The notes under the pieces: generated by a model
What the model saw: only the letters and a program-made list of their open reading frames with translations
What the model was told of the DNA's origin: nothing
Database searches by the model: none
NCBI GenBank assembly: GCA_022844165.1
Contig: JALHMH010000004.1
Span: 136,197-200,196 of the forward strand
Length of the DNA: 64,000 nucleotides
Reading direction: 5' to 3'
Source: Lysobacterales bacterium
Lineage (GTDB): Bacteria > Pseudomonadota > Gammaproteobacteria > Xanthomonadales > SZUA-5
Part shown: in pieces, positions 38,225-48,565 of the stretch
Numbering within the stretch: the first letter of the stretch is position 1
How the letters are laid out: each line of letters opens with the position of its first letter
Made by a program: the position numbers and the translations under genes

Positions 38225-38791
38225 ATGGGTCTGTTTAGTTTTGTGGCGTCCGCTGGCGCCAAGCTGTTCGGCGGCAAGAAGCCGTCGGAAATCCCCAATT
38301 TGAGTGCACTGGTTCGCGAACATGTGCGCAAGGTGGGTCTGCCGGTAGATCACGTGCACTATTGGTTCGAAAAGGAAGTTTTGGTTGCCGCCGGCTGGGT
38401 GAAGGACAAGGCGACAAAAGAGAAGCTCATCGTCGCCGTTGGCAATGTCGAAGGCGTCGATCAAGTAGAAGATCGACTTGTCGTTGGTGCGCCGCCAAAG
38501 TTCGATACGCCCGCCCCAGCAGCCACGCCGAGTCCGGCGGCCACCCCGATCATTGCCGAGGCCCCGATCCCGGTGGAAGCTCTGCCCACCAGGGAAGACG
38601 CGGAGAAGGACGCATTCGAGAGCCGTACGCATGTGGTTGAAAAAGGTGACACGCTGTCGAAGATCGCGAAAGAGGTCTATGGCAATGCCAACAAGTACAT
38701 GGTGATCTTCGAGGCCAACAAACCGATGTTGGCCGATCCGGACAAGATCTACCCAGGCCAGGTCTTGCGGATTCCGCCGCTCGAAAAATGA
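38225..38791 (+). CDS. kbp: BON-LysM protein, Kbp (YgaU)-like K+-binding protein
   Basis: 188 residues with a strong AAGGAG site upstream. N-terminal MGLFSFVASAGAKLFG, a BON domain (about 28-95: VGLPVDHVHYWFEKEVLVAAG, VAVGNVEGVDQVEDRL), a Pro/Ala linker (96-130) and a C-terminal LysM domain (about 138-186: HVVEKGDTLSKIAKEVYGN). E. coli Kbp is a cytoplasmic K+ sensor-like protein needed for growth in high K+. The linker is longer than in E. coli. It overlaps the downstream hydrolase by 4 bases. A truncated copy of residues 55-155 lies at 48264-48565. Confidence 0.9.
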   Translation: MGLFSFVASAGAKLFGGKKPSEIPNLSALVREHVRKVGLPVDHVHYWFEKEVLVAAGWVKDKATKEKLIVAVGNVEGVDQVEDRLVVGAPPKFDTPAPAATPSPAATPIIAEAPIPVEALPTREDAEKDAFESRTHVVEKGDTLSKIAKEVYGNANKYMVIFEANKPMLADPDKIYPGQVLRIPPLEK

Positions 38792-39518: not shown

Positions 39519-39725
39519 TCAGACCGACTTTTGAGTGAGTTCGAACGCAGCCAGCTGTCGTTCTGCTTCGTCTTTGCTGATGCCGTAGGCTTCCTGAATC
39601 CGCCCAGCTAATTCGACTCGACGTCCGTCGATGACTTCTAATTGGTCGTCGGTCAGCTTGCCCCACTGTGCTTTGACCTGGCCGCGAAATTGTTTCCAGT
39701 TGCCTTTGGCGATATCCCAGTTCAC
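39519..39725 (-). CDS. CsbD-family stress protein
   Basis: 68 residues from a GTG at 39725, chosen because AGGAG lies 6 bases upstream and the family start NWDIAKGNWKQFRGQVK follows at once. CsbD domain: QWGKLTDDQLEVIDGRR and AYGISKDEAERQL. CsbD proteins accumulate under general stress; the mechanism is unknown. It is last in a minus-strand string yqjD-yqjE-yqjK-csbD. Confidence 0.9.
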   Translation of the reverse strand: MNWDIAKGNWKQFRGQVKAQWGKLTDDQLEVIDGRRVELAGRIQEAYGISKDEAERQLAAFELTQKSV

Positions 39726-39829
39726 ATTCTTCTCCTGATTGGAGGCCTCAGCATGTGCCACCCATTGAGTTGCGTCTGTTCGGTTGCGCACCAGAGCCAG
39801 AGTTCGCGGATTGGATCGCGGGTCGCAGA

Positions 39830-40210
39830 TCATCTGCCGTTGCGAACAGGTGTTGCGGTATTTGACGTCCGATCCGGGGGCGGTTCGCAACGATCCACTT
39901 GAGGTCGGGTTGACGCCTCAATGCGTGACCCGCGCATCCTGTCGACCACGGTGAGAACTGCATATCCAGTCACCCAGGCGCGCTCGAGCCATCGACGGGG
40001 ACGCCCAATGGGAAGCACCGCGATCACGCCGGCACTCGCCAGCAGCCAGAGCGGATGGCGCCACAATGCTGGCAATGTTGACGCTTTCGCGATCGCCGTC
40101 AGTGGGCGCTGCCAAGGCCGAATACACGCGACGATGATCAAGCGATGAGCAGCGTCTGCGGTTAACAGCTGGCGACGGCGATCTGCGATTCGCTGCAGGC
40201 GACCCGTCAT
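39830..40210 (-). CDS. YqjK-like small protein
   Basis: 126 residues, basic, starting MTGRLQRIADRRRQLLTAD, the YqjK-like opening. A hydrophobic patch occurs at about residues 47-67 (ALWRHPLWLLASAGVIAVL). The C-terminal 40 residues are unconserved-looking. The ATG overlaps the yqjE stop (ATGA). Assignment relies on context and the N-terminal motif. Confidence 0.65.
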   Translation of the reverse strand: MTGRLQRIADRRRQLLTADAAHRLIIVACIRPWQRPLTAIAKASTLPALWRHPLWLLASAGVIAVLPIGRPRRWLERAWVTGYAVLTVVDRMRGSRIEASTRPQVDRCEPPPDRTSNTATPVRNGR

Positions 40211-40593
40211 CGTGGGCTCCTGGTGCGGCGATCTTTTTCCAGCGTAGATAAACTCGTCGAGAAAATGCTCGGCATCTGCTGCGCACGGCGAAGTACCAGG
40301 GCGCAGGCAAGAAAACCGACCAGCAGTAAAGCAGCTGCGATCGCAACAACGAGCGCGAGCCGGCGTTCGTCGGGGATCGCCATCAACAACGCAATCACAG
40401 AGAGTACGCCGCCAATGCCAATCGCAACCATGGCACCGAGCGCAATGAACAGCATGGAAGTCAACCGAACCCGACTCTCATCGAGATCGAGAGACAACAG
40501 TTCCAGGCGGGTGCACGCAACTGCGTGCACCGATTCGGCCAGCATCGTCAAAGATGCCAGGAGACCTTGAGACGAAGGCGCCCGGGCCGACAT
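40207..40593 (-). CDS. yqjE: YqjE/DUF1469-type membrane protein
   Basis: 128 residues: an amphipathic N-terminus (LTMLAESVHAVACTRLELLSLDLDESRVR), two membrane segments at about 48-70 and 78-102, and a basic tail. This matches the phage-holin-like YqjE family, found between YqjD and YqjK. Starts 3 bases after the yqjD stop. Function unknown; linked to membrane stress in stationary phase. Confidence 0.85.
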   Translation of the reverse strand: MSARAPSSQGLLASLTMLAESVHAVACTRLELLSLDLDESRVRLTSMLFIALGAMVAIGIGGVLSVIALLMAIPDERRLALVVAIAAALLLVGFLACALVLRRAQQMPSIFSTSLSTLEKDRRTRSPR

Positions 40594-40596
40594 GGT

Positions 40597-40944
40597 TCAG
40601 CGCCTCGCGAGCATCGCGCCGACCAGCAGGCCGGCAATACTGGCTGCCCCAACCGCGGCCCAGGAGTGGGCGTGGACATAAGTATCGGTTGCAACAGCAG
40701 CGTCGCGCGCACGGATGCCGAGCTTCTCGCGAGCCACGTCGACATGTTCCTTGAGCGACCGCAGCGATTCCCGGACACTTGCTTGAATATCGCTGAGCTT
40801 CTCGCTGCCGACATCGGTTGCGGTCTTCAGAACGATCTCAGCATCGGTCAGTACTTGCTTGAGTTCGGACATCAAGTCGTCGCCGACGGGCACATCTGTT
40901 GCTCGGACGGCTTCTGATGGGTTGAGTGAATTGGGCATACGCAT
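40597..40944 (-). CDS. yqjD: YqjD/ElaB (DUF883) ribosome-associated membrane protein
   Basis: 115 residues from ATG 40944 with TGGAG upstream. Long amphipathic helix (MSELKQVLTDAEIVLK, LSDIQASVRESLRSLKEHV) then one C-terminal membrane segment WAAVGAASIAGLLVGAMLARR. The family tethers inactive ribosomes to the membrane in stationary phase in E. coli. First gene of the yqjDEK-csbD string. Confidence 0.9.
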   Translation of the reverse strand: MRMPNSLNPSEAVRATDVPVGDDLMSELKQVLTDAEIVLKTATDVGSEKLSDIQASVRESLRSLKEHVDVAREKLGIRARDAAVATDTYVHAHSWAAVGAASIAGLLVGAMLARR

Positions 40945-41070: not shown

Positions 41071-41724
41071 CTAGGTGCGATTGGCGAATCTCAGTCCTGC
41101 GCCGATCAACAGGGCGCCGATGCCGAGCACAGCAAACCAGGGCAACACGCCGGCGGTGTTCGGCAAACGCAGAGCGGACGGCGAAAGCACCGGCGCAGCT
41201 TGCGCCAATTGCGGTGGTTCTGCGGGTGCTTCATAGCGGACAATGCGCCCATACGACTCTGGCGGCGTTCCGACTTCGGTCGTCAATGCGGCTGCGCCCT
41301 CAGGGACGTATAAATTGATGCGTTGGCCCCCGCGGAGTGCTGTGAACGGGTACTTGCGGCCATCCAGCGTTACCTGTTGGCCAGGATTGTTGAGCACCGT
41401 GTAACGGCCCATCGACCGACCGCCGGGGCTGACGAAGTCGGCGACTACCGAACCGTCGCGATCCAGTCGTATGAAGTCTGCTTCGAAGCGTGCCCATTTG
41501 TTGCCGTTGTTATTGATGACTTCGAAACAGGCGTCGGGGATGCGCGGGTACTGTTCGATCAGTTCCAGATTCCAGGCCATGTCGACCTGCCCGCAGCTCA
41601 GAGTGCGCGTATGAGTCGGCTCGAGGTCTTTGGTGTCCATGCCCTGTGCGAAAGCGAAGTTGGTAAACGCGAGACTGAGAATCAATGGCGTAATGCGCGA
41701 ATTGTGAGTCTTCAACGATTTCAT
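41071..41724 (-). CDS. Secreted sortase substrate with LPNTA sorting signal
   Basis: 217 residues from ATG 41724 with AAGGAG upstream. Signal peptide to about residue 26 (SLAFTNFAFAQ), a two-Cys domain (Cys44, Cys66), a beta-rich region with RYTVLNNPGQQVTLDGRKY, then a C-terminal sorting signal: LPNTA at 187-191, hydrophobic segment 194-210 and basic tail RFANRT. This is the tripartite signal recognised by sortases. A sortase gene lies upstream in the same direction. The molecule to which it is attached is unknown. Confidence 0.85.
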   Translation of the reverse strand: MKSLKTHNSRITPLILSLAFTNFAFAQGMDTKDLEPTHTRTLSCGQVDMAWNLELIEQYPRIPDACFEVINNNGNKWARFEADFIRLDRDGSVVADFVSPGGRSMGRYTVLNNPGQQVTLDGRKYPFTALRGGQRINLYVPEGAAALTTEVGTPPESYGRIVRYEAPAEPPQLAQAAPVLSPSALRLPNTAGVLPWFAVLGIGALLIGAGLRFANRT

Positions 41725-41932
41725 TGTGATGCTCCTTGTTGAGCCTGAACGGTGGGGATTTAACCCCTTGTGGAACCACTTGTGCGCGAGAACGGTGCGG
41801 GCTCGGCCCTGCGCTTTACGACACACTCGCCGCCCTGGTTGCCAATGGGCAGCAACGGTGACTTCCGCGGCGATCTCGATCGAGCCGGGAAGACGGTTAA
41901 CGATCGGGCAGCTCCTCTGCAACACACCCCGG

Positions 41933-42640
41933 TTAGTTGGGATCTTGATTCGCGACCAGCGCGCGAACGATGTAGCGCTTTGGCGCTTGACCGGCGAACC
42001 AGAACGGATAACACGTGATCAACGTCAATGCGGCGTGGTCTGTTGCTTGCAGCGGCGAAACGTCATCGGGGTCGACGATCGACACCGATGCGATTCGGTA
42101 GTGCACATGGCTGGCCATGCTTTCAAACTCGATCCAATCGCCGATCTTGACCCGGCTCAGTGCTCGGAAGTAGCCGTCGCGATGCGCGGCGATAGCGATG
42201 TTCCCAATTTCCTCATGCATACCGTCGGTCGTTACCAGACTCGCGCCACGGTTGAGGTTCCGTTCGCTCAGAGTGGCATACACCGGTACTTCTAATTCGA
42301 TACGTGGAATCCGCAGCAAAGCAATTGGCAGGGCGGAGTCGCTCGCGGAGCTGTCGGCGTACGAGCGGATTCGGCTGGCTGACCAGTCAGTTTGGTTGAC
42401 TTCAGCTGGTGCCGCGTCGGACGCCAGGATGGGTATGAGCGCGCTCAATGGTGGGTTGCGCGGTGCAACAGCGTTCTGATCCGCAGCGTTGGCATACGCC
42501 TTGTTCTTCGCAAATGCTGTCATTGCCCGTTGGCGCTCCACCTCGCCGGAAAGGCGACCTCCGGCGTAAGTCAGTAGCAGGGCGACACCGATGATCCAGG
42601 AGGCCTTTTCAGCCTGCCGCACGAGTGAGTGGGCGCGCAT
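41933..42640 (-). CDS. Class D-like sortase of a Gram-negative bacterium
   Basis: 235 residues with a membrane anchor at about 13-29 and a sortase domain. Catalytic His153 (IAIAAHRDGYF), Cys210 (TLITCYPFWF) and Arg222 (KRYIVRA). The CYPFxFxGxAPxRxIVRA pattern resembles class D sortases. It would cleave the LPNTA signal of the adjacent gene and transpeptidate it to an unknown amine in the envelope. It begins 3 bases after the stop of an entericidin-like gene; the substrate lies 208 bases downstream. Confidence 0.93.
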   Translation of the reverse strand: MRAHSLVRQAEKASWIIGVALLLTYAGGRLSGEVERQRAMTAFAKNKAYANAADQNAVAPRNPPLSALIPILASDAAPAEVNQTDWSASRIRSYADSSASDSALPIALLRIPRIELEVPVYATLSERNLNRGASLVTTDGMHEEIGNIAIAAHRDGYFRALSRVKIGDWIEFESMASHVHYRIASVSIVDPDDVSPLQATDHAALTLITCYPFWFAGQAPKRYIVRALVANQDPN

Positions 42641-42643
42641 GTG

Positions 42644-42823
42644 TCAGTGCCCGATCGCCGGTGTCAGGTCGTTTTCGCTTTGCGGAGAGCTTTGGGCGTC
42701 AGCCTCCTCCTCAATCCTCTCGCCAACCTTCTGCGTGTCTTTGCCGACCCCCCGGATCGTATTGCATCCGGCGAAGAGGTTGGCGATCACTAACAACGCA
42801 ATGACACGAATGATCGTCGACAT
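42644..42823 (-). CDS. Entericidin-like small lipoprotein
   Basis: 59-residue lipoprotein: MSTIIRVIALLVIANLFAGC with lipobox FAGC (Cys20), then NTIRGVGKDTQKVGERI, the entericidin EcnA/EcnB signature, and an acidic tail. Entericidins are stress-induced bacteriolytic or membrane-perturbing lipoproteins. A GGGAGA site precedes the ATG. It is 3 bases from the sortase gene, so the two are probably one operon. Confidence 0.85.
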   Translation of the reverse strand: MSTIIRVIALLVIANLFAGCNTIRGVGKDTQKVGERIEEEADAQSSPQSENDLTPAIGH

Positions 42824-43383: not shown

Positions 43384-43581
43384 ATGATGAATTGGGATAC
43401 GGCACACAATGATTCAGCGCTGAAAGGCAAGCTCAAGACTCAATGGAGCAAGCTTTCCGACGTGCAGCTCGACTCGATCAAAGGCAAACGCCCGGCACTT
43501 CTGAGCACCATCCAAAGCGCGTACGGCGTGAGCAGCGACGAAGCCGAGAAGCAGGTCGCAAGCTTCGAGAAGCTCCACTGA
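43384..43581 (+). CDS. CsbD-family stress protein (second copy)
   Basis: 65 residues with AAGGAG upstream; starts MMNWDTAHNDSALKGK (an ATG also at 43387). The domain WSKLSDVQLDSIKGKR and AYGVSSDEAEKQV matches the CsbD family and the gene at 39519-39725, but the two share only the pattern, not close identity. The pair brackets the sortase/YqjDEK region in opposite orientations. Confidence 0.88.
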   Translation: MMNWDTAHNDSALKGKLKTQWSKLSDVQLDSIKGKRPALLSTIQSAYGVSSDEAEKQVASFEKLH

Positions 43582-44001: not shown

Positions 44002-44150
44002 AGAGTCCTTGATGAAGCTGGATCTTGTCATTTGAGTCAAGGCTTTGGCTTTTGCAGCCCCTTAAGTTAAGGGGCGCGCGAAGCGCGGGTTGTGGGCAAT
44101 ACGGTGTCTGGCGAAGCCAACAATGCTCGGCGGTCTGAGGCGAAGCCTCG
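44002..44150 (+). repeat. Dispersed palindromic repeat, copy B
   Basis: Same family as 9498-9675 and 47957-48122. Hairpin 1 arms 44057-44065 and 44067-44075 read GCCCCTTAA / TTAAGGGGC, so both sides changed relative to copies A and C while pairing is kept. Hairpin 2 is CGCGC-GAA-GCGCG (44075-44087). The 38-base 3' core is 44113-44150. It lies upstream of the Mla operon in direct orientation with copy C beyond the operon. Confidence 0.8.
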
Positions 44151-44366
44151 CTAGGAGCAGATGTGCGCTACCGCACCGATGACGACGGCGTTGCGGTGCA
44201 ACTTTGAGACTCCTTATCGCTCCAGGGGATCACGTGAGCCTTCGTTGTACCTGCGTAGTCGGCTACTGGGTGGCAGTTCGTCTTGAGAGTTTGCAGGACT
44301 GGCCAGCCAGGTGCGTTCGTGGCGCAAATTGCCTCGACCTCAACCGCCCGGGCGTTTGCTGGGATC

Positions 44367-45500
44367 ATGCTCCAGCAAGCCAGCATTGACGCCGCCATCT
44401 CAATGTCCGCCGATGCGCAATTGCGGCTCACCGGCGACTGGTCTGTGCGTGGTCTCAAGTCGATCGAGGCGCAGCTGGCTGCGCTGAATCCACCGTGCAG
44501 CAAGCCGCTGACCTTGAATTGCGCGGAGGTCCTGGCAATGGATACGGCCGGGGCATGGCTGCTGCAAAGCTTGCTGCTGCGGCTGCAGGCCAACAGCGTG
44601 GGCACAAAGATCGACGGCTTAAAGCCTGCGTTTGCAAAGCGACTGGAAGTCGTCGCTGCGCAGTTGGCGGCTGCGGACAGCCAAAGAGCCCCAACAACCG
44701 CGGCAATGCGACCACTCGAGCGCCTCGGGCGCAGCGCCTTTGCGGTATGGGAGGAAACCTATGCGCTGCTCAGCTTTGTCGGCGAGACGGCAAAAACGCT
44801 GCTGCAATCGGCCCTGCAGCCCGCGCGCATTCGTTGGCGCCCGATTCTGTTCAACATTCGTGAGGCCGGCTTCAACGCGCTGCCGATCGTCGGTCTTCTA
44901 TCGTTCTTGCTGGGCGTTGTCGTCGCCTACCAGGGCGCTGATCAGCTACGCCAATACGGCGCGAATATCTTCGTCGCCGATTTGGTGGGTGTGTCGATGC
45001 TGCGCGAGTTTGCGCCGTTGATCACGGCGATCATCATCGCCGGACGCTCCGGATCTGCCTACGCAGCTCAAATCGGCACCATGGCGGTCACCGAAGAGAT
45101 CGATGCGATGCGCACGCTCGGCATCGCGCCCATCGAAATGCTGGTGCTGCCCAAGCTCATCGCGATGCTCATCGCGCTGCCGTTGCTGACGGTGTTCGCC
45201 GATGTGCTGGGCATACTGGGCGGCATGCTGATGGCGCGCGAACAGCTCGACGTCGGGTACGTCGAGTTTCTCGATCGGTTGATTAAGGCAATCGTGATGA
45301 CGACGTACACCGTAGGCATCGGCAAAGCACCGGTCTTCGCGCTGATCATCGTGTTGGTGGGCTGTTTTCAGGGCTTTCGCACACGCGGCGGTGCCGACAG
45401 TGTCGGTCGTCAGACCACCCGTAGCGTCGTGCAGTCGATCTTTCTGGTCATCGTTGCCGATGCGCTGTTCTCGGTCGTGTTCAGCGCATTGGATATCTAG
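44367..45500 (+). CDS. MlaE-type ABC permease with N-terminal STAS domain
   Basis: 377 residues from ATG 44367 (MLQQASIDAAI), GGGA upstream; the frame stays open upstream to a TTG at 44283. The N-terminal STAS-like domain (about 15-95, LNCAEVLAMDTAGAWLLQSLL) is fused to the MlaE permease (about 115-377) with FNALPIVGLLSFLLGVVVAY and GSAYAAQIGTMAVTEEIDAM. It is part of an ABC system moving lipids between the membranes. In E. coli the STAS protein MlaB is separate; the fusion is common elsewhere. First gene of a four-gene operon. Confidence 0.92.
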   Translation: MLQQASIDAAISMSADAQLRLTGDWSVRGLKSIEAQLAALNPPCSKPLTLNCAEVLAMDTAGAWLLQSLLLRLQANSVGTKIDGLKPAFAKRLEVVAAQLAAADSQRAPTTAAMRPLERLGRSAFAVWEETYALLSFVGETAKTLLQSALQPARIRWRPILFNIREAGFNALPIVGLLSFLLGVVVAYQGADQLRQYGANIFVADLVGVSMLREFAPLITAIIIAGRSGSAYAAQIGTMAVTEEIDAMRTLGIAPIEMLVLPKLIAMLIALPLLTVFADVLGILGGMLMAREQLDVGYVEFLDRLIKAIVMTTYTVGIGKAPVFALIIVLVGCFQGFRTRGGADSVGRQTTRSVVQSIFLVIVADALFSVVFSALDI

Positions 45501-45502
45501 GC

Positions 45503-46321
45503 ATGGACGCCGGCGACGAGACGGTCATTGAGCTCAGCAAAGTCTCGACGCGATTTGGCGATCATGTGGTGCACCGCGAGATCGACTTGAGCGTCCGCCG
45601 TGCGGAGATATTCGCGCTGATCGGCGGCAGTGGCTCAGGCAAATCCACGCTGCTGCGCGAAATGATTCTGCTGCACCGACCGACCTCGGGCAAGATCAAA
45701 GTCCTTGGGAACGATCTGGATGCCCTGAGCGAAGCCGACGCCAGCGCGCTACGTCTACGCTGGGGCGTGATGTTCCAGCATGGCGGCCTTTTCGGCGCGC
45801 TGAATGTGCGTGAGAACGTTGGCCTGCCGTTGCGCGAGCACACCAAGCTGTCTGACGCGCTGATCGATTCGCTGGCCGAATGGAAGCTGACGATGGCCGG
45901 TCTTGGGCTGGAGGTGGGCACGCAATTTCCCAACGAGCTCAGCGGCGGAATGATGAAACGCGCATCGCTGGCGCGAGCACTGGTGCTGGATCCGGAACTG
46001 CTCTTTCTCGATGAGCCGACAGCCGGGTTAGATCCCGTGAGCGCCACAGGCGTGGACGTCTTGGTGCTGAAGCTGCGCGAGCTGTTCGGCTTGACCATTG
46101 TGATGATCACCCACGATCTGGATTTGCTGTGGCAAGTTGCCGATCGCGTTGCCGTGCTCGCCGATGGCCGCGTCGAAGCGGTCGGATCGATGGCAGACCT
46201 GGCCGCGATCGACCGCCCTGAGGTTCGTCAGTTTTTCGAGGGTGCGCGTGGCCGCGCGGCGCAGCAATCCGCAGCGCCCTCCAATCGCAATCAAGCCGGG
46301 ACATCATGGAAACCAAAGTGA
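45503..46321 (+). CDS. MlaF-type ABC ATPase
   Basis: 272 residues. Walker A GGSGSGKST, signature ELSGGMMKRASLARAL, Walker B LLFLDEPTAGLDP, switch His in MITHDLD. This is the ATPase of the MCE lipid transporter. Starts 2 bases after the permease stop and overlaps the MCE gene by 16 bases. The C-terminal 20 residues are Ala/Gln-rich and probably disordered. Confidence 0.95.
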   Translation: MDAGDETVIELSKVSTRFGDHVVHREIDLSVRRAEIFALIGGSGSGKSTLLREMILLHRPTSGKIKVLGNDLDALSEADASALRLRWGVMFQHGGLFGALNVRENVGLPLREHTKLSDALIDSLAEWKLTMAGLGLEVGTQFPNELSGGMMKRASLARALVLDPELLFLDEPTAGLDPVSATGVDVLVLKLRELFGLTIVMITHDLDLLWQVADRVAVLADGRVEAVGSMADLAAIDRPEVRQFFEGARGRAAQQSAAPSNRNQAGTSWKPK

Positions 46322-47253
46322 ACTATGCCCTCGTTGGGGTTTTCGTCATCGTCCTCGGTGCGGCTTTGGTTGCGGGCATCTTGTGGATCGCTTCCGGGGG
46401 CGACTTCCAAAAGAGATACGACCTGTATCTATCGATCAGCGAGGAGTCCGTCGGCGGGCTGAATCTCAACGCGCCGGTGAAATACCTTGGGGTGGACGTC
46501 GGCAAGGTTCGCTCGATCGAGCTCGATCCGGTCGATCAGCAGCGCGTGCGGCTGGTGTTTGCGATCGAGCGCGGCACGCCAATCAAGGTGGATACCGTGG
46601 CGGTGCTCACCACGCAAGGTTTGACCGGCATCGCCTATGTCGAGCTCAACGGCGGCAGCAAAGATGCCGAGCCGCTGCGCGCGCGAGTGGTGGGCGACAT
46701 GCCGATCATCCTGACCAAGCCCTCATTGAGCGCGCGCCTGGAGAACGTGCTCACACAAGTTCTGGCAAAGCTGGATGGAACCTCGAGCAATGTCGATGCC
46801 GTGCTGAGCGACGAAAATCGGCGCAACTTCAGTGCGGCATTGGCCGATATTGCCACCGTGGCGCACACGATCTCCGCTCGCCAGAGTGATATCGATCGCG
46901 GGATCGCGAGCGCTGCGACCACTTTGGAGAGCTCGGCAAAACTGATGGCTCGGTTGCAACCCGCATTGGACCAGATCAACCGCAGTGCTGCATCGATTGA
47001 GCGATTCGGCACCGAGGCCACGGCCGCCTCCAGTCAAGCCGGGGAATCGATCGAATCGCTGGGCGCCGACCTGTCGCGGTTTGGCGCAGAAACGCTGCCA
47101 GAGATGACCCGCCTGCTCGATGAACTCAATATCCTGGCCGCGTCCATGCGGCGCGTTGCCGAGCAAACCGAGCGCAGCCCGAACAGTCTGATCTTCGGCC
47201 GCAGCAAGGTGCCGGCCGGGCCCGGCGAATCGCCAATGGAACGAAAGCAATGA
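46306..47253 (+). CDS. MlaD-family MCE lipid-binding protein
   Basis: 315 residues: one membrane anchor (about 8-29), MCE domain (about 38-120; VGGLNLNAPVKYLGVDVGKV, LTTQGLTGIAYVEL), then a long helical region (130-290) as in the larger MlaD/PqiB-like members. It forms the periplasmic ring through which phospholipids pass. Longer than E. coli MlaD (183 residues), closer to the Mce-type with a coiled-coil tail. Confidence 0.92.
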   Translation: METKVNYALVGVFVIVLGAALVAGILWIASGGDFQKRYDLYLSISEESVGGLNLNAPVKYLGVDVGKVRSIELDPVDQQRVRLVFAIERGTPIKVDTVAVLTTQGLTGIAYVELNGGSKDAEPLRARVVGDMPIILTKPSLSARLENVLTQVLAKLDGTSSNVDAVLSDENRRNFSAALADIATVAHTISARQSDIDRGIASAATTLESSAKLMARLQPALDQINRSAASIERFGTEATAASSQAGESIESLGADLSRFGAETLPEMTRLLDELNILAASMRRVAEQTERSPNSLIFGRSKVPAGPGESPMERKQ

Positions 47254-47909
47254 ACGCTCTGTCGACTTCGAACGTGTTGCGGATCGGCGGCCTCGCAACT
47301 GCCCTTTTTTGGCTCGTCGGCTGCAGTGGACTGATCCCCAGGCCCACTCCGCAGGCGGCCTTCTACACCATCGATGTGGCGCCAGCGTCCGGCGCGCTGG
47401 CGCCGTCGATCAACGCCAAAGACATGCCCACGGTGCTCATCAGCGCGCCGCGCGCTGCTGCCGGGTATGACAGCCGGCAAATGATCTATGTGCGCCAGGA
47501 CTATCGCCTGCAATACTTCGCAGACAGCCAGTGGGTAGACACGCCAGCGCGCATGTTTGCACCCCTGATGGTGACCCACCTTGCCGCTGCCGGCGCATTT
47601 CAGGCGGTCTACACCGGCGCCAGCGCGGCGGCAGATCTGCGCCTGGATACCGAGATCGTTGTGCTCAAGCAGGACTTCCTCACGACGCCGAGCCGGGTTC
47701 GTTTCGTGTTGCGCGCTCACTTGATCGACGGGGTAAGCCGACGCGTGATCGCCGCACGCGATATTGAGGCCACCGTGGCGAGCGCCAGCGAAGACCCCTA
47801 TGGTGGCGTGGTTGCTGCCAACGGCGCTGTTGGCAAGGTGCTGAGTCAGTTGAGCGAGTTCTGTGCTGAGGGCATTGAGGCGTGGCAAAAGCGCTCATCG
47901 ACGCCCTGA
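47250..47909 (+). CDS. MCE-associated auxiliary lipoprotein (PqiC/ABC_trans_aux family)
   Basis: 219 residues. Lipoprotein signal with lipobox LVGC (about Cys25), FYTIDVAPASG then a PqiC-type domain (TVLISAPRAAAGYDSRQM, FADSQWVDTPARMFAPLM). PqiC-like lipoproteins dock the MCE tube at the outer membrane. Overlaps the MCE gene by 4 bases and ends the operon. A 5'-truncated copy lies at 52898-53382. Confidence 0.92.
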   Translation: MNALSTSNVLRIGGLATALFWLVGCSGLIPRPTPQAAFYTIDVAPASGALAPSINAKDMPTVLISAPRAAAGYDSRQMIYVRQDYRLQYFADSQWVDTPARMFAPLMVTHLAAAGAFQAVYTGASAAADLRLDTEIVVLKQDFLTTPSRVRFVLRAHLIDGVSRRVIAARDIEATVASASEDPYGGVVAANGAVGKVLSQLSEFCAEGIEAWQKRSSTP

Positions 47910-47956: not shown

Positions 47957-48122
47957 AGAGTCCTTGACGGAGACTGATCTCGACAAATGAGTCAAATTTT
48001 CTACGAAGCGGCTTTGGCTTTTGAAGCCCCCTTGAGTCAAGGGGGCGCGCGGAGCGCGCGGTTGTGGCAAGTACGCTGCCGAACGAAGCCAACAATGCTC
48101 GGCGGTCTGAGGCGAAGCCTCG
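47957..48122 (+). repeat. Dispersed palindromic repeat, copy C
   Basis: Same family as copies A and B. Hairpin 1 arms 48026-48034 and 48038-48046 (GCCCCCTTG / CAAGGGGGC), hairpin 2 CGCGC-GGA-GCGCG (48046-48058), 38-base core 48085-48122. The left edge is where the duplicated auxiliary-lipoprotein segment ends (53432), and the sequence beyond it leads into the kbp fragment. Confidence 0.8.
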
Positions 48123-48185
48123 TTAGTGGTGTGTCACAAATACCTCTAACTAAAGTTCCGCACCTTTTGACCCGAATACGTCGTT

Positions 48186-48263
48186 GTTCGTCGTCGCCAT
48201 GGCGCTGCTATGACGCCCGGCCCGGCGACGCAGCCGCCGGTCGTTCAAGCCAACTCGCGGCGT
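48186..48263 (+). repeat. Tail segment associated with repeat copy C
   Basis: Resembles 9695-9770 after copy A, sharing GCGCTGCTATG and CGGTCGTTCAAGCC. It ends exactly where similarity to kbp begins at 48264. The bases between copy C and this tail (48123-48185) show nothing recognisable. Confidence 0.5.
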
Positions 48264-48565
48264 GCCGCCGGCTGGGTGAAGGACAAGGCGACAAAAGAGA
48301 AACTCATCGTCGCCGTTGGCAATGTCGAAGGCGTCGATCAAGTAGAAGATCGACTTGTCGTTGGTGCGCCGCCCAAGTTCGATACGCCCGCCCCAGCAGC
48401 CACGCCGAGTCCGGCGGCCACCCCGATCATCGCCGAGGCCCCGATCCCGGTGGAAGCTTTGCCCACCAGGGAAGACGCGGAGAAGGACGCATTCGAGAGC
48501 CGTACGCATGTGGTTGAAAAAGGGGACACGCTGTCGAAGATCGCGAAAGAGGTCTATGGCAATGC
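48264..48565 (+). pseudogene. Internal fragment of kbp (BON-LysM) gene
   Basis: 302 bases matching 38387-38688 without gaps; I count five differences, all third-position or first-position-Leu synonymous changes. The fragment covers the end of the BON domain, the linker and the first half of LysM. It lacks the start and the last 34 codons, and the frame runs on into unrelated sequence ending at 48650. Expression of a fusion protein is possible but has no Shine-Dalgarno sequence at a sensible place. Confidence 0.85.

Follow-up and report, generated by a model that had tools for sequence, protein, structure and literature searches.

What a sortase attaches proteins to in a Gram-negative bacterium is, to our knowledge, an old gap, and the question is raised again by a 64,000-nt stretch of a Lysobacterales genome (GenBank assembly GCA_022844165.1, contig JALHMH010000004.1, positions 136,197 to 200,196 of the forward strand), hereafter the window. 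The initial annotation had recognized in it a sortase with His153, Cys210 and Arg222, a neighboring exported protein ending in an LPNTA-hydrophobic-basic tail, and a 59-residue entericidin-like lipoprotein 3 bases before the sortase. All three were confirmed at the following window positions, listed with their parts and neighbors:

42644-42823, minus strand: entericidin-family lipoprotein, 59 aa, first gene of the apparent local operon
41933-42640, minus strand: sortase, 235 aa, N-terminal membrane helix and C-terminal sortase barrel
42182-42184, minus strand: codon of catalytic His153, invariant column
42011-42013, minus strand: codon of catalytic Cys210, invariant column
41975-41977, minus strand: codon of catalytic Arg222, invariant column
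41732-41737: AAGGAG ribosome-binding site of the substrate gene
41071-41724, minus strand: putative sortase substrate, 217 aa, with signal peptide, beta-barrel, Pro/Ala linker and LPNTA sorting signal
41230-41607, minus strand: beta-barrel domain of the substrate, residues ~40-165, predicted to be exported, without a named family
41152-41166, minus strand: LPNTA motif, read from the sequence, predicted cut T/A (motif statistics from 61 relatives)
41086-41145, minus strand: C-terminal hydrophobic helix of the sorting signal (AF2), then RFANRT
40597-40941, minus strand: DUF883/ElaB-like stress protein, neighbor gene, context only
40207-40593, minus strand: Phage_holin_3_6-family (YqjE-like) membrane protein, neighbor gene, context only
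39519-39731, minus strand: CsbD-family stress protein, context only
43384-43581, plus strand: CsbD-like protein, Pfam score under the cut-off, context only

On the minus strand the order is thus lipoprotein, 3-nt gap, sortase, 208-nt gap and LPNTA substrate, an apparent operon inside a CsbD/DUF883 stress cassette of the source genome. Exactly 3 nt separate the stop codon of the entericidin gene from the ATG of the sortase (TGA-CAC-ATG) and no Shine-Dalgarno sequence of its own is visible before the sortase start, making translational coupling plausible. The 208-nt spacer between sortase and substrate showed no RNA structure (z -0.17), and a search for a consensus sigma-70 promoter returned none. 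A genomic island was considered on compositional grounds and rejected, the GC content (0.59-0.60) being close to that of the surroundings.

The window sortase scored 89.5 bits against the Pfam Sortase model (PF04203; cut-off 26.6), which places it in the superfamily, and was the only Pfam sortase detected in the 4.68 Mb source genome. His153, Cys210 and Arg222 were invariant in an alignment of 14 sequences. These first 14 sequences had also suggested a W-x3-R-[IV] segment ahead of the catalytic domain, a candidate that we dropped once the pattern was found in only 29 of 80 sequences. The AF2 model of the enzyme had its best Foldseek match in the PDB with sortase D of C. perfringens (4d70, 4e-12), with enzymes of classes A and C next in rank. 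By sequence, the best PDB match was 2ln7, which we take to be the SrtC sortase of B. anthracis. NCBIfam models also ranked class D first, yet both of its scores fell below their cut-offs (NF033746, 103.6 against 165; NF058671, 104.8 against 140), so that class D serves as a precedent by relatedness only. The LPxTA-type motif expected of class D substrates is present as LPNTA in the window substrate.

A search of 60 related genomes recovered a set of sortases at approximately 40% identity, which we call type 1, and weak matches at about 30%. In a tree built from 137 columns, we compared 75 type-1 sortases with plasmid-borne reference sortases of classes D, C and GN. The type-1 enzymes formed one clade (93/82; grouped together in 92% of bootstraps), in which the window sortase was sister to a Silanimonas sequence (97/89). 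This clade fell within the same large group as classes D and C, although type 1 and class D stood as separate clades in a region of the tree that was not resolved and that also contained class C and a sortase of Streptomyces. With only 137 columns the exact sister group of the type-1 clade is uncertain; the tree would nonetheless put the window-type sortases as one clade near the class D enzymes of Bacillota. NF058671, a model for class D sortases specific for LPxTATN, was the best-scoring one for type-1 sortases; two distant members passed its cut-off of 140 (L063, 148.8 bits; L060, 141.6 bits), whereas the window sortase did not and has LPNTAGV in its substrate instead of LPxTATN.

Class GN, a Gram-negative sortase with a VIT-domain target, has already been described, and its target is usually the sole LPXTG protein of its genome (PMC3237569). 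Like the window pair, the class GN enzyme (TIGR03784) and its marine proteobacterial target (TIGR03788) are Gram-negative, dedicated to each other and encoded gene beside gene. The locus could, in principle, encode such a sortase with an unusual partner, as the fold is the same and TIGR03784 gives the window enzyme 80.2 bits. That score is, however, far below the cut-off of 158.25, and the partner is a ~200-residue beta-barrel protein without a Pfam domain rather than a large VIT/VWA protein, none of which is encoded next to the window sortase. Furthermore, class GN split off in the same tree as another clade with 100/99 support, and several relatives carry both the window and the GN type in one genome. 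Score, partner and tree together exclude the window sortase from class GN, and we consider this explanation extremely improbable.

The predicted substrate carries a signal peptide ending in AFA/Q (by eye) and the tail LPNTAGVLPWFAVLGIGALLIGAGLRFANRT. Sequence and AF2 model together revealed all the parts of a sorting signal: the motif, a hydrophobic helix, a basic end and, at the other terminus, the signal peptide. The anchor model TIGR01167 gave the window protein 12.4 bits, under its cut-off of 15.9, and matched 13 of 64 substrate relatives at E<=0.01. AF2, run with 64 homologues, predicted with confidence a beta-barrel at residues ~40-165 (blocks mostly >90 pLDDT), followed by the Pro/Ala linker and the C-terminal helix. 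No Pfam or NCBIfam domain covered the barrel, only anchor models matched the protein, and Foldseek retrieved no PDB fold for the barrel at E<=0.001. A PDB sequence match to a cell surface glycoprotein (7ptp, 2.6e-4) was set aside as resting on the Pro-rich and C-terminal regions. Both the exported protein family and the sortase clade are without a name in the libraries searched. Two cysteine columns were both filled in 43 of the 64 substrates and both empty in the others, as expected of a periplasmic disulphide. The motif of the relatives reads [LM]-P-x-T-[AG]-[SGT], apart from one S at the fifth position; A occupies this position in 46 of 61 relatives, and many have LPxTG or MPxTA in place of LPNTA. 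Acidobacterial substrates are longer and contain an apparent second copy of the barrel motif (by eye).

We scanned a collection with the type-1 alignment. The scan identified at least 566 encoding stretches, and the best 80 of these, most of them gammaproteobacterial or acidobacterial and some from Myxococcota, were analysed. Already among the related genomes many type-1 sortases directly adjoined a ~200-residue LPxTA protein; in this best-scoring sample, 63 of the 80 loci encoded an anchor-bearing exported protein no more than 700 bp from the sortase. Compared without the anchor, 61 of these 63 neighbors were assigned to one family by iterated profile search, and 55 of the 61 lay immediately downstream in the same orientation, start and stop overlapping in some cases. 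By comparison, one of 1641 ORFs located more than 1.5 kb away passed a comparable test for a signal peptide plus tail, and this one is probably a real substrate of its locus. Chance can, therefore, be discounted as the source of the pairing. The count of 63 is a lower bound, because a substrate-like LPQTG protein (L111:2997-3797) lies ~1.9 kb from its sortase and, thus, beyond the 700-bp limit.

Across the order, the sortase was detected in 35 of 399 genomes and the substrate (matches at 1e-20 or better) in 36 of 398, with 34 genomes common to both (p ~1e-45 by Fisher's test, which ignores relatedness). The anchor profile found the window substrate alone in the source genome (4e-16; next best 0.88), as the initial annotation had proposed in speaking of a single substrate. 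Applied to 15 genomes, it returned one anchor each in 13, a marginal second match in another, and two substrates in one that also has two sortases. Two complete, separate pairs were seen in one genome at G060:C1:634447 and G060:C1:3078012 (loci L036 and L035). Co-occurrence and synteny in three phyla lend strong backing to the earlier idea of a Gram-negative sortase with one dedicated substrate and indicate that the sortase and its putative LPNTA substrate belong to a widespread two-gene module of Gammaproteobacteria, Acidobacteriota and Myxococcota. The distribution is patchy, with the module in 1 of 9 genomes of the window's own family, where the neighboring DUF883 gene also had a match in 1 of 9 relatives. 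Much of the clade is represented by metagenome assemblies alone; the module also occurs in isolates such as Wenzhouxiangella, Parahaliea and Edaphobacter. Two Lysobacterales genomes encode second type-1 sortases (L040:8800-9462 and L044:9812-10468) with a seemingly cleavable signal peptide, no membrane anchor and no LPxTA neighbor; these may be soluble orphan enzymes.

One-to-one pairing of this kind resembles that of a lone GlyGly-CTERM protein with its rhombosortase (PMC3237569) and would also suit a sortase working mainly as a protease, which would cut the anchor, give the acyl group to water and free the substrate into the periplasm or to the outside. We judge this decidedly unlikely for an enzyme that retains the full sortase triad with an invariant Arg and stands near the transpeptidating class D enzymes in the tree.

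The lipoprotein next to the sortase raised the possibility of a third component. It belongs to the Pfam Entericidin family (PF08085; 28.4 bits against a cut-off of 23.3), with the lipobox LFAG/C and the CNTxRGxGxD core that it shares with EcnA and EcnB. Scores for the NCBIfam equivalogs were well under the cut-offs (EcnB, 28.4 against 94; EcnA, 25.7 against 86) and, unlike EcnA/EcnB, it has no second entericidin beside it. The initial annotation had coupled this lipoprotein to the sortase in a stress system, and the 3-nt gap on the same strand makes joint expression of the two genes likely in the source genome. The coupling also has a counterpart in another family of the order (L148; G371:C23:192000-205000), where the genes are arranged as entericidin, substrate, CsbD, sortase, CsbD-like frame and BON, with substrate and sortase ~1.5 kb apart and a DUF3185 gene nearby. 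The L148 lipoprotein, found by six-frame search in a falsely long ORF, is close to that of the window by profile yet below the Pfam cut-off (16.5 bits against 23.3). Beyond these two cases the coupling did not hold: of about 100 neighborhoods (an approximate count, as some flanks are short and a few loci were counted twice), only 2 have an entericidin beside the module, so that the link is absent from nearly all relatives, though not from every one. It is missing even beside the module of Silanimonas, the closest relative, in which a presumed transposase sequence occupies its place upstream.

Among 29 other entericidin genes surveyed in the order, 14 have CsbD no more than 1.5 kb away, and at least 5 of the genomes with this combination have no sortase match. 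The lipoprotein is, therefore, part of a common stress cassette; in two known cases the sortase module lies within or beside this entericidin/CsbD cassette. The comparison argues that the entericidin is a local accessory and not a general part of the sortase module. Active participation of the lipoprotein in sorting is, in our view, highly unlikely, notwithstanding the tight gap, the L148 arrangement and the CsbD, BON and DUF883 neighbors. The cassette would probably affect when the pair is expressed and stand outside the general mechanism; a role for the sortase system in stress, suggested by the CsbD/DUF883 neighborhood, is possible.

We then considered the acceptor. The MurE protein of the source genome carries DNPR, the motif of MurE enzymes that add m-diaminopimelate (m-DAP), so the peptidoglycan of this bacterium should contain m-DAP. 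In B. anthracis, the class D sortase SrtC joins LPNTA proteins to m-DAP crossbridges (PMC3297441); it shares an operon with its substrate BasI and cuts LPNTA between T and A (PMC3297441; PMC3208642). The premise of the initial annotation that Gram-negative bacteria lack the classic acceptor is, thus, not supported, as a fitting amine is present. Bacillota class D (B. anthracis SrtC with BasI/BasH; C. perfringens SrtD, PDB 4d70) is the closest named class by model, structure and tree. BasI and BasH have the same LPNTA pentapeptide as the window substrate, SrtC and BasI share an operon as the window pair appears to, and m-DAP peptidoglycan is common to both. The window module differs from class D in its diderm hosts, its separate clade with scores under the model cut-offs, its different and unnamed substrate domain, and the presence of exactly one substrate in the source genome.

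Given the SrtC precedent, the shared pentapeptide and the presence of m-DAP, transfer to lipid II or nascent peptidoglycan is the most economical mechanism. Sec would export the substrate, which would fold in the periplasm, often with one disulphide, while its C-terminal helix held it in the inner membrane. The sortase, anchored by its N-terminal helix, would then cut LPNT/A, hold the substrate as a thioester on Cys210 and transfer it to lipid II or nascent peptidoglycan, at the side-chain amine of meso-diaminopimelate. This would leave a small beta-barrel covalently attached to the thin periplasmic wall through a Pro/Ala stalk. On balance, we lean toward a dedicated one-enzyme, one-substrate sortase module of diderms that would covalently anchor a small beta-barrel to periplasmic peptidoglycan. 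If true, the bond would be a sortase-made counterpart of the Lpp-peptidoglycan bond made by L,D-transpeptidases. Once fixed, the barrel might, at a guess, space or tether the wall and the outer membrane, or act as a ligand-binding domain.

Sortases of other classes use pilin lysines, and the window sortase might likewise join its substrate to an amine outside the peptidoglycan. Candidates would be phosphatidylethanolamine, a partner protein and an amino sugar in a polysaccharide of the cell surface, and a Pro/Ala stalk would also be suited to displaying the substrate from the outer membrane. However, no lysine column is conserved among the substrates (the highest, at 34%, is in the signal-peptide region), making pilus-like self-polymerisation unlikely. 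Nor did any third gene recur at the module beyond local synteny within clades, which leaves no obvious dedicated acceptor protein. We regard such an alternative amine as unlikely, though conceivable.

Full-text literature, which covered few subscription journals, contained no description of this sortase/substrate pair, and one that we did not see is possible. The evidence is about evenly balanced on the fuller proposal of a second, unnamed Gram-negative sortase system that, in three diderm phyla, would attach one dedicated beta-barrel to the m-DAP of periplasmic peptidoglycan. With a single enzyme and substrate, a motif of known type, a plausible acceptor and hosts available as isolates, the module makes it testable in three outer-membrane phyla whether diderms also staple proteins to the cell wall by sortase.

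Elsewhere in the window, a gene for an MlaE permease with a STAS domain fused to its N-terminus is followed by genes for an apparent ATPase, an MlaD-like protein and a lipoprotein; the region (44283-47909) looks like a lipid-transport operon of unusual layout. It is flanked by a 67-nt repeat (44088-44154 and 48060-48126, 87% identical). A 300-nt direct repeat (38386-38685 and 48263-48562; 98% identical, 9.9 kb apart) is part of a BON/LysM gene (38225-38791) copied behind the MlaE-type locus, where its reading frame is broken and lacks the BON start and LysM end. The 67-nt repeat and the BON/LysM fragment suggest a past duplication or rearrangement.
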